This document shows, piece by piece, positions 26,625 to 29,420 of a stretch of 64,000 bases of DNA. How positions within the stretch are numbered: position 1 is the stretch's first letter; every line of letters starts with the position of its first letter. Both the position numbers and the translations under genes were made by a program. The DNA lies in the NCBI RefSeq assembly GCF_024666615.1, contig NZ_CP088297.1, positions 496,001-560,000 on the forward strand, written 5' to 3'. Below the pieces are notes generated by a model. The model worked only from the letters and a program-made list of their open reading frames with translations, did no database searches and was not told the origin of the DNA. This stretch comes from Aquabacterium sp. J223 (lineage in GTDB: Bacteria > Pseudomonadota > Gammaproteobacteria > Burkholderiales > Burkholderiaceae_C).

Positions 26625-27746
26625 TCAGCCGCGCCGGGCCTTCACCGCGGCGCTCAGCACCGACAGCACCTCCGTGGAATCGTCCCAGCCCAGGCAGGCG
26701 TCGGTGATGCTGGTGCCGTAGGCCAGCTTCGCGGGGTCGTCGCGGCCCGGGGTGAACTTCTGCGCGCCGGCGTGCAGGTGGCCCTCCACCATCACGCCGA
26801 AGATGCTGCGGCCGCCGTGCGCCACCTGGCCGGCGATGTCGCGCGCCACGTCGAGCTGGCGCTGGTGCTGCTTGCTGCTGTTGGCGTGCGAGCAGTCGAC
26901 CATCAGCGACGGCTTGAGCCCCGCGCCCTGCAGCGCCTCGCAGGCCGCCTGCACGCTGGCCTGGTCGTAGTTCGGCGTCTTGCCGCCGCGCAGGATGACG
27001 TGGCAGTCGGCGTTGCCCGCCGTCTCGACGATGGCCACCTGGCCGTTCTTGTGCACCGACAGGAAGTGGTGCGGCCGGGCGGCGGCCTGGATGGCGTCGG
27101 TGGCGATGCGGATGTTGCCGTCGGTGCCGTTCTTGAAGCCGATCGGCGCCGAGATGCCGGAGGCCAGCTCGCGGTGGACCTGGCTTTCCGTGGTGCGCGC
27201 GCCGATGGCGCCCCAGCTGATGAGGTCGCCGATGTACTGCGGCGAGATCACGTCGAGGAACTCGCTGCCCGCCGGCATGCCGAGGCGGTTGATGTCCAGC
27301 AGCAGGTGGCGCGCGATGCGCAGGCCTTCGTCGATGCGGAAGCTCTCGTCCAGGTACGGGTCGTTGATCAGGCCCTTCCAGCCGACGGTGGTGCGCGGCT
27401 TCTCGAAGTAGACGCGCATCACGATCTCCAGCGTGTCCGCATGGCGCTCGCGCTCGGCCTTCAGCCGGCGCGCGTATTCCAGTGCGGCCTGCGGGTCGTG
27501 GATGGAACACGGTCCGATGATCACCAGCAGCCGGTCGTCGGCGCCGTTCATGATCCGGCGGATGCGCTGGCGCGTCTCGCTGACCAGCGCCTCCACCGGC
27601 GTGCCGCGCACCGGGAAGAAGCGGATCAGGTGCTCGGGCGGCGGCAGCGGCGTCACGTCGACGATCCTCTCGTCGTCGGTCTGGCTGGTCTTGTCGGGCG
27701 CATGCCAGCCCTCCACGGCGTTGGAAGAAGCGGACTTGGGCGTCAT
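26625..27746 (-). CDS. aroG: 3-deoxy-7-phosphoheptulonate (DAHP) synthase, class I
   Basis: A 373-residue DAHP synthase, the first step of aromatic amino acid synthesis, joining phosphoenolpyruvate and erythrose-4-phosphate. Signatures include LLVIIGPCSIHDPQAALEYA, RVYFEKPRTTVGWKGLINDP, GARTTESQVHRELASG, LMVDCSHANSSKQ and SIFGVMVEGHLHAG, all of the AroF/G/H (class I-alpha) kind. The start at 27746 has CAGGAG 9 bases upstream; a long untranslated leader with an aromatic-rich leader peptide and terminator lies before it, so control by aromatic aminoacyl-tRNA supply is likely. Which of Phe, Tyr or Trp feeds back on the enzyme cannot be told by eye. Confidence 0.95.
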   Translation of the reverse strand: MTPKSASSNAVEGWHAPDKTSQTDDERIVDVTPLPPPEHLIRFFPVRGTPVEALVSETRQRIRRIMNGADDRLLVIIGPCSIHDPQAALEYARRLKAERERHADTLEIVMRVYFEKPRTTVGWKGLINDPYLDESFRIDEGLRIARHLLLDINRLGMPAGSEFLDVISPQYIGDLISWGAIGARTTESQVHRELASGISAPIGFKNGTDGNIRIATDAIQAAARPHHFLSVHKNGQVAIVETAGNADCHVILRGGKTPNYDQASVQAACEALQGAGLKPSLMVDCSHANSSKQHQRQLDVARDIAGQVAHGGRSIFGVMVEGHLHAGAQKFTPGRDDPAKLAYGTSITDACLGWDDSTEVLSVLSAAVKARRG

Positions 27747-27781
27747 CGTTCGAGCTCCTGCAGATCGGTGGAAGGCGGACG

Positions 27782-27811
27782 AAAAAAAACCGCCGGAGGG
27801 CATCCGGCGGT
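27782..27811 (-). terminator. Attenuator hairpin upstream of aroG
   Basis: On the minus strand an 8-bp perfect stem (ACCGCCGG, loop ATGCCCT, CCGGCGGT) is followed by eight T (27782-27789). It lies between the leader peptide and aroG, so it would stop transcription before the gene unless disrupted. The leader peptide segment CCGGCGG (27858-27864) equals the 3' arm and can pair with the 5' arm as an antiterminator. Confidence 0.88.
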
Positions 27812-27838
27812 CTTGAGGAGGTGGGCTTGGCGCTTTGT

Positions 27839-27910
27839 CTACGCTCGGGCCTCTCCGCCGCCGGTGCGGTGCGAGAACCAAAAGTAGCCAAAGAAAAAGG
27901 CGAAGCGCAT
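27839..27910 (-). CDS. Aromatic amino acid leader peptide of aroG
   Basis: A 23-residue frame, MRFAFFFGYFWFSHRTGGGE and three more residues, ends in TAG. Eight of residues 3-12 are aromatic (six Phe, one Tyr, one Trp). It precedes a strong terminator and DAHP synthase. That is the layout of a ribosome-stalling attenuator: starvation for Phe, Tyr or Trp would stall the ribosome in the first 12 codons and let the downstream CCGGCGG pair with the terminator's 5' arm. No ribosome site precedes the ATG. TGCTACATT (extended -10 like, near 27918-27926) ends 7 bases before the ATG, so the leader might be translated as a leaderless transcript. Confidence 0.85.
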   Translation of the reverse strand: MRFAFFFGYFWFSHRTGGGEARA

Positions 27911-27956
27911 GGCCGCGAATGTAGCACGCGGGTTCTGCCCGGTGCTCACCCCCGCT

Positions 27957-29420
27957 TCAGGCGGTGCCGCCCACCGTCATGCGGTCGATGCGCAGCGTCG
28001 GCTGGCCGACGCCCACCGGCACGCTCTGGCCTTCCTTGCCGCAGGTGCCGACGCCGGTGTCGAGCTTCATGTCGTTGCCGATCATCGACACCCGGGTCAG
28101 CGCGTCCGGCCCGTTGCCGATGATGGTCGCGCCCTTGACCGGGTAGAGCACCTTGCCCTTCTCGACCCAGAACGCCTCGCTGGCCGAGAAGACGAACTTG
28201 CCGCTGGTGATGTCGACCTGGCCGCCGCCGAAGTTGGTGGCGTACAGGCCGCGGTCGATGCTGGCCACGATCTCGTCGGGCGTGCGGTCGCCGGCCAGCA
28301 TGTAGGTGTTGGTCATGCGCGGCATCGGCACATGGGCGTAGCTTTCGCGGCGGCCGTTGCCGGTGGGCTTGACCTTCATCAGCCGCGCGTTCATCGCATC
28401 CTGGATGTAGCCGCGCAGGATGCCGTCTTCGATCAGGACGTTGCGCTGCGAGGGGCAGCCTTCGTCGTCGACGTTGAGCGAGCCGCGGCGGTCCGGCAGC
28501 GTGCCGTCGTCCAGCACCGTCACGCCCTTGGCCGCCACCCGCTGGCCGATCATGCCGCTGAAGGCGCTCGAGCCCTTGCGGTTGAAGTCGCCTTCCAGGC
28601 CGTGGCCGATGGCCTCGTGCAGCAGCACGCCGGGCCAGCCGGGGCCGAGCACGACGGTCATCTCGCCCGCCGGGGCCGGGCGCGACTCCAGGTTGGTCAG
28701 CGCGGCGTTCACCGCCTGCTCGACGTAGGCGTCGATGCGCTCGTCGGTGAAGTAGTTGAGGCCGAAGCGCCCGCCGCCGCCGCCCGAGCCCACTTCGCGC
28801 CGGCCGTTCGATTCGGCGATCACGGTGATGGACAGGCGCACCAGCGGCCGTACGTCGGCGGCGCGGGTGCCGTCGGCGCGCGCCACCAGCACCACGTCGT
28901 GCTCGGCGGCCAGGCCCGCCATCACCTGCACCACCCGCGGATCGCGAGCGCGGGCGCGCTTTTCGGCCTTCTCCAGCAGCGCCACCTTCTGCGTGCTGTC
29001 CAGCGTGCCGATCGGGTCGGTGGGCGCGTACAACACCCGGCTGCCGGCGGCCTGGCCATGGGCCGGCACCTTGATGCGGCGCGTCTGGCCGGCCGCCGCG
29101 ATGCTGCGCACCGTGCGCGCGGCGTCGAGCAGCGCCGCTTCCGAGATGTCGTCCGAATAGGCGAAGGCGGTCTTCTCGCCGGCCACCGCACGCACCCCCA
29201 CGCCCTGGTCGATGCTGAAGCTGCCGCTCTTGACGATGCCCTCCTCCAGGCTCCAGCCCTCGTGGCGGGTGGCCTGGAAGTACAGGTCGGCGTCGTCCAC
29301 CTGGTGGCGGGCGATGGCGCGCAGCGCGGCGGTCAGGTGCGCGTCGGTCAGGCCGTAGGGCGCCAGCAGCGCCGCCTCGGCCACGGCCAGGCGTTCCAGG
29401 GTGGGTTCGCGGGAAATCAT
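27957..29420 (-). CDS. tldD: Metalloprotease TldD
   Basis: A 487-residue TldD subunit. With TldE (PmbA) it forms a zinc protease that trims peptides such as microcin precursors and degrades unfolded peptides. The metal site HEAIGHGLEGD is present near residues 265-275, and GRFGLNYFTDERID and VGTCGKEGQSVPVGVGQPT are family signatures. The ATG at 29420 is the natural start; upstream in-frame sequence is divergent intergenic DNA. tldE/pmbA is not in this window, as is common. The aroG leader begins just after the stop. Confidence 0.95.
   Translation of the reverse strand: MISREPTLERLAVAEAALLAPYGLTDAHLTAALRAIARHQVDDADLYFQATRHEGWSLEEGIVKSGSFSIDQGVGVRAVAGEKTAFAYSDDISEAALLDAARTVRSIAAAGQTRRIKVPAHGQAAGSRVLYAPTDPIGTLDSTQKVALLEKAEKRARARDPRVVQVMAGLAAEHDVVLVARADGTRAADVRPLVRLSITVIAESNGRREVGSGGGGGRFGLNYFTDERIDAYVEQAVNAALTNLESRPAPAGEMTVVLGPGWPGVLLHEAIGHGLEGDFNRKGSSAFSGMIGQRVAAKGVTVLDDGTLPDRRGSLNVDDEGCPSQRNVLIEDGILRGYIQDAMNARLMKVKPTGNGRRESYAHVPMPRMTNTYMLAGDRTPDEIVASIDRGLYATNFGGGQVDITSGKFVFSASEAFWVEKGKVLYPVKGATIIGNGPDALTRVSMIGNDMKLDTGVGTCGKEGQSVPVGVGQPTLRIDRMTVGGTA

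Follow-up and report, generated by a model that had tools for sequence, protein, structure and literature searches.

A predicted ribosome-mediated attenuator with Phe, Tyr and Trp codons upstream of aroG in Aquabacterium sp. J223 and its relatives

The DAHP synthase gene aroG of Aquabacterium sp. J223 is very probably preceded by a ribosome-mediated transcription attenuator of the classical type, as predicted from its sequence. All parts of the element lie on the minus strand of the window, that is, the stretch of 64,000 nucleotides analyzed here (NZ_CP088297.1, positions 496,001 to 560,000). Directly visible in the sequences are these parts, the fact that they are conserved before aroG, and how well the two alternative helices fit each other. 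The same device stands before aroG in nearly all sampled relatives and, therefore, the pathway is probably switched on when phenylalanine, tyrosine or tryptophan is scarce. The first-pass annotation, which had proposed an attenuator at this site, appears to be right, and the case for it is stronger and wider than was stated there. With this prediction, the committed step of aromatic amino acid synthesis in a large bacterial order gains a specific candidate regulator that can be tested. We consider the attenuator moderately interesting because codons of three aromatic kinds precede what is apparently the sole enzyme of the common pathway, and because of the predicted leaderless start.

The gene upstream of the leader is tldD (27957..29420, minus strand, start predicted), encoding the metalloprotease TldD (NCBIfam PRK10735.1, score 666.1 bits, cut-off 513). 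The leader open reading frame (ORF) starts 46 nt past the tldD stop codon (TGA, 27959-27957) on the same strand, and a putative promoter, the extended −10 box TGCTACATT (27918..27926, minus), ends 7 nt before its ATG. The aromatic-rich leader peptide described at first pass, for which no strand had been named, is encoded on the minus strand by the conserved mini-ORF MRFAFFFGYFWFSHRTGGGEARA (27839..27910; ATG at 27910, TAG at 27841-27839), which has 23 codons and specifies 23 amino acids. Codons 3-12 spell FAFFFGYFWF (27875..27904, minus), with six Phe, one Tyr and one Trp codon. Segment 1 (UUCUC, 27873..27877, minus) has the potential to pair with GAGAG. Segment 2 (CCGGCGGCGGAGAGG, 27850..27864, minus), the predicted 5′ strand of the antiterminator, lies within the leader ORF and is used in all three frames among relatives. 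As had been noted, it contains CCGGCGG (27864-27858, minus), identical to the 3′ arm of the terminator, which carries the second copy. Segment 3 (CCACCTCCTCAAGACCGCCGG, 27804..27824, minus) would form the 3′ strand of the antiterminator, and its end is the 5′ arm of the intrinsic terminator. This terminator (segments 3:4, 27782..27814, minus) has a 12-pair stem (27814-27786) and the run of eight T residues already reported (27789-27782). The stem is the only terminator-like site in 27300-28300, where 0.5 would be expected from shuffled sequences. A Shine-Dalgarno-like AGGAG, read from the sequence (27755..27759, minus), is followed by aroG (26625..27746, minus; ATG at 27746), identified, in keeping with the earlier assignment, as a class I DAHP synthase (3-deoxy-7-phosphoheptulonate synthase), its product scoring 526.6 bits with TIGR00034, where the cut-off is 173.2. 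A dispersed repeat was ruled out, TTTGGCTACTTTTGG occurring, with up to two mismatches, once in the genome of 4,656,067 bases.

The aroG gene of the window is the one AroG-type match in the genome, a class II DAHP synthase gave no match, and the one other PF00793 protein is a KDO8P synthase. Apparently, aroG thus encodes the only DAHP synthase of the genome, so that a single switch has to represent three end products.

Conservation of the leader

Loci of aroG were taken from whole genomes (30, including that of the window) and from named contigs (80), with a few genomes in both sets. The genera sampled include Rhizobacter, Roseateles, Rubrivivax, Variovorax, Hydrogenophaga, Burkholderia, Caballeronia and Massilia. 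One locus (L066) was left out for having too little upstream DNA, and 109 homologues had enough. Leaders were recognized by a pattern that combines leader GGCGG with terminator CCG[C/T]C..GCGG-T; loci with fewer than four aromatics in 12 residues were excluded. Of the 109 homologues, 85 are preceded by a mini-ORF rich in aromatic codons, GGCGG within the leader and a CCGCC...GGCGG-Tn terminator that matches it, corresponding to 82 distinct leaders; the invariance of GGCGG and CCGCC in these 85 is partly by construction, as the filter demanded both. Four near variants each have an aromatic leader and a terminator. Three of these (L009, L036 and L106) were missed by the pattern for lack of an exact GGCGG in the leader and one (L070) for an interrupted T run. 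The pattern also left out L075, L083, L091, L092, L102 and L108, which have no matching terminator. By the pattern test, no such leader was found in 20 of the 109, including the Polynucleobacter loci and most Methylotenera loci.

The best short ORF within 400 nt upstream of aroG contains at least six aromatics in 12 residues in 85/109 loci, the window's own included. In two control sets, taken from the final 400 nt of these loci and from shuffled upstream DNA, the maximum was five in 12, reached once per set of 109. Codons for Phe and for Tyr are present in all 85 leaders and Trp codons in 70/85, being absent from the other 15. The presence of all three kinds in one leader, as claimed for the window, thus extends to most relatives, and Phe and Tyr can be regarded as the constant signal, with Trp as the usual third.

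The proposal made at first pass depended on the leader frame being conserved, and an alignment across Burkholderiales, recommended there as a check, bears it out: conservation before aroG covers the frame of the leader and its aromatic codons as well as the antiterminator sequence and the terminator. For each of the 82 leaders, a block of eight codons was taken that closes with the last aromatic codon. Read in frame, 549 of these 656 codons encode Phe, Tyr or Trp, one of every eight being guaranteed by the definition of the block, against 171/574 and 120/574 in the other two frames. As with known attenuators, a short leader ORF rich in end-product codons is therefore conserved in frame. The GGCGG downstream of the aromatic block, on the other hand, falls in the three reading frames in 51, 32 and 2 of the 85 leaders. 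As the aromatic block is bound to its frame while GGCGG is free of it, the first part looks to have been selected as codons and the second as RNA.

To what extent the element is spread was assessed with a covariance model, R1, built from the 82 distinct leaders. It contains only nine base pairs, all belonging to the terminator, and short partial matches are for this reason plain terminators. In the genome of the window, R1 has one strong match (E = 9.3e-22), the next having an E-value of 0.56. Among 200 genomes of the window's family, 194 have an R1 match at E ≤ 1e-5; of the 179 with a completeness of 90% or more and a contamination of 5% or less, 176 do. In a set of 399 genomes, full-length matches at E ≤ 1e-5 number 105, in 104 genomes; the tally of 202/399 at E ≤ 0.01 includes partial matches and was not taken as prevalence. 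Forty-four distinct full-length matches (E ≤ 1.2e-5) were inspected, 43 of which lie before aroG, 41 of these 43 with an aromatic ORF. The exceptions are L154 and L156, located before aroG without an aromatic ORF, and L145, which is not before aroG. No aroG follows five weaker full-length matches (L146-L150) within the stretches of 1.8-1.9 kb examined. In a class-wide sample, 13 of 369 genomes match R1 at E ≤ 1e-4: three from the window's family (the window's genome included), four with the match before aroG in another order, and six without aroG in the stretch examined. L154 and L156 (genomes G325 and G354, family f44) display antiterminator- and terminator-like letters before aroG and an ORF with few aromatic codons, and may represent a decayed leader. 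In family f23, a tandem pair of aroG matches follows a single aromatic leader (L130, G343), and another genome (G057) has two adjacent aroG matches.

Alternative helices and ribosome position

The antiterminator proposed at first pass, CCGGCGG paired with CCGCCGG, turned out to be longer than that: leader CCGGCGG..GAGAGG is complementary to CUC..CCGCCGG, the end of which is the 5′ arm of the terminator, so that the helix gains an inner stem of the GAGAG:CUC type. In the window, the predicted folding energy is −27.6 kcal/mol for the antiterminator (27866-27804), against −19.0 kcal/mol for the terminator. Means over the 82 leaders are −21.8 and −17.6 kcal/mol, respectively; the antiterminator is the stronger helix in 66/82, and it is also stronger than its shuffles (mean z −2.55).

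Pairing was further examined by a swap test, in which the own pairing partner is replaced by that of another locus of the same clade. Leaders were grouped for this by peptide motif, not by a tree, into Comamonad-type (62, including some loci of other families), Burkholderia-type (12) and Oxalobacter-type (8). Within-clade swaps weakened the terminator (n = 77, P = 8.9e-13) as well as the inner stem of the antiterminator (n = 82, P = 3.3e-5), in support of the antiterminator pairing, and did not weaken two control pairings (P = 0.95 and 0.26); since related sequences are not independent, the P-values are guides. For both helices, paired cells, two-sided cells and the covariation score exceed those of all 500 shuffles. 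The number of pairs with two-sided changes, two per helix, is not above the shuffles, being reached by 340/500 for the antiterminator and 224/500 for the terminator. Seven cells are unpaired at three antiterminator pairs because seven rows of alignment A1 have GGCGG one column off. An intrinsic terminator thus lies between the leader ORF and the structural gene in the window and its relatives, and an antiterminator (2:3) that excludes the terminator (3:4) has support from related sequences. For the candidate protector stem 1:2 (UUCUC:GAGAG), 89.0% of cells are paired and four of five pairs have two-sided changes, but the swap test is not significant within clades (P = 0.19), with P = 0.99 across clades. 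Apart from these helices, many relatives in A1 have a conserved GCGTA about 10-15 nt after GAGAG that, with a later ACGC, could fold into a hairpin inside the antiterminator.

The position of the ribosome was modeled with its front edge 12 nt past the first base of the A-site codon, an assumed footprint. The last aromatic codon starts 11-20 nt ahead of GGCGG in 82/82 leaders, with aromatic codons at most 6 nt from GGCGG excluded from the geometry; unfiltered, 3 of 85 leaders have one 1-6 nt before it. On the assumed footprint, a ribosome at the last aromatic codon leaves GGCGG free in 79/82 leaders, while one at the stop codon overlaps segment 2 in 74/82 and does not reach it in 8/82. With this footprint, a stalled ribosome would thus free segment 2, and one at the stop codon would cover it.

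From these parts we infer stalling, control of termination, a response to three amino acids and a start site. The transcript would begin at about the leader AUG, and translation of the leader peptide would use a leaderless mRNA. Scarcity of charged tRNA-Phe, tRNA-Tyr or, in this leader, tRNA-Trp would make the ribosome wait at the aromatic codons with its front edge just short of CCGGCGG. Segment 2 would then pair with segment 3, and the antiterminator so formed would block the terminator and let aroG be transcribed. When all three charged tRNAs are plentiful, the ribosome would reach the stop codon and cover part of segment 2; the terminator would form and transcription would end before aroG.

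Transcript start and alternative readings

A feature not described in the first-pass annotation is the predicted −10 box of the window, whose position is that expected for a leaderless leader peptide. Among the 62 Comamonad-type leaders, 55 have an extended −10 box (consensus GTGCTACATT) that ends 5-9 nt ahead of the ATG of the leader; the remainder of the 200 nt upstream gives an expectation of 0.05. A Shine-Dalgarno-like site before the leader ATG is missing from all 62, as expected of a leaderless peptide, and such a site does precede an in-frame aroG ATG in 49 of the same 62 loci. By eye, a TATCAA- or TATCTA-like box also ends 7-8 nt before the leader start in the four aroG loci of another order. 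The position of the box and the missing Shine-Dalgarno site suggest that the leader is probably leaderless, with the transcription start of the window's group predicted at the leader AUG, give or take a few bases. The close box is absent from 7/62 Comamonad-type leaders and found in 0/12 Burkholderia-type and 0/8 Oxalobacter-type leaders, and the leaderless part is for this reason not general.

That absence from the Burkholderia and Oxalobacter types would be expected if the same attenuator were carried on an ordinary leadered transcript, with a promoter further upstream and TGCTACATT not its −10 box, and a simple promoter scan indeed found no σ70 site in 27300-28300. The scan, however, required a −35 hexamer, which extended −10 promoters can do without, and an ordinary leadered message accounts poorly for a box kept at a fixed distance and for leaders devoid of Shine-Dalgarno-like sites throughout the Comamonad type. 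We therefore regard a leadered transcript as rather unlikely in the window.

Two further explanations dispense with attenuation. The terminator might merely end transcription of tldD, with the aroG promoter downstream of it and the aromatic ORF incidental; the window has tldD as the neighboring upstream gene in the same orientation, and 63 of the 85 loci have a tldD match upstream. Yet the remaining 22 have no upstream tldD match, another 16 have it at a distance of 638-1091 nt, and leader and terminator are found next to aroG all the same. A terminator of tldD was rejected on these grounds; it would also leave the conserved aromatic frame, the spacing and the fit of the antiterminator unexplained, and we consider it very improbable. 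Some nucleotides, e.g., GAGAG and GCGTA in the consensus, are conserved in addition to the peptide, which might instead point to a riboswitch-like leader that binds a ligand or protein and in which translation of the ORF is irrelevant. Against this, Rfam 15 yielded no family at the gathering threshold for the window and six relatives, sub-threshold matches attaining at most 13.8 bits against 58, and identity with an Rfam family was rejected. Since aromatic codons confined to a single frame and the ribosome spacing would again go unexplained, a binding RNA of this kind seems to us hardly credible. A ribosome-mediated attenuator remains the reading we prefer.

Known systems and related elements

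The kind of attenuator is known, and the aroG member of it is without a match in Rfam or NCBIfam. Searches with three query peptides, one of them a composite, returned 0 families among the NCBIfam leader peptide models at E-values up to 10. No report of this aroG leader was among the matches listed for the open PMC literature; an earlier prediction may exist in subscription papers, e.g., Vitreschak et al. 2004. In pheL-pheA and trpL-trpE of Escherichia coli, a leader ORF with end-product codons is followed by mutually exclusive antiterminator and terminator helices, the structural gene being located just downstream. The aroG element shares these traits and has most of the testable defining features of a classical ribosome-mediated attenuator. 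It differs from both in that they read one amino acid each and serve a terminal branch, while the aroG leader combines Phe, Tyr and Trp codons before a common-pathway enzyme, and in that the position of its box suggests a leaderless start. Attenuators with consecutive Phe and Trp codons are described for E. coli pheA and trpE in PMC11878033.

Ahead of another DAHP synthase gene, aroF of Acholeplasma, the description of the uORFC-13-1 motif (PMC8632094) gives a candidate upstream ORF with at least one Phe codon, a ribosome-binding site and a terminator, with 24 representatives known only from Acholeplasma and environmental sequences. Compared by description only, both systems have an ORF with Phe codons and a terminator; unlike uORFC-13-1 with its ribosome-binding site, the Comamonad-type aroG leaders are without a Shine-Dalgarno-like site. 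A parallel in transcript layout is trpL of Sinorhizobium meliloti (PMC7298713), a leader ORF of 14 amino acids before trpE(G) whose transcript starts with its own ATG and which is followed by an attenuator. The terminated RNA and the peptide of trpL are reported to act in trans. The aroG leader ORF is likewise predicted to stand at the transcript start with an attenuator after it, but trpL belongs to an alphaproteobacterium, responds to Trp and has a known 5′ end, while the 5′ end of the aroG leader is a prediction.

In this group, the predicted leaderless leader peptide is widely conserved, and the covariance model could be used to annotate the element. It is conceivable, although quite unlikely as a whole, that in much of the Burkholderiales and at least one other order the first shikimate step has as its standing control one leaderless peptide summing Phe, Tyr and Trp supply; because its message is leaderless, the output of this control would depend on the state of the initiation machinery as well, and terminated RNA and peptide might act in trans.

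At L145/L175 (G152:C20:48230-48373, minus strand), the aromatic ORF MVTFSVVYNVYFYWYRSSGGAKGC, a GGCGG and a similar terminator precede a gene other than aroG, with no function assigned; this element may be a related attenuator at another gene. L148 (G342:C1:274402-274553, minus strand) combines a short ORF beginning MELFIAALLSLLLLSRLKDR with a strong terminator, and has a run of four Tyr codons in another frame. The gene that follows looks acetyltransferase-like by eye, and the element is possibly another attenuator.
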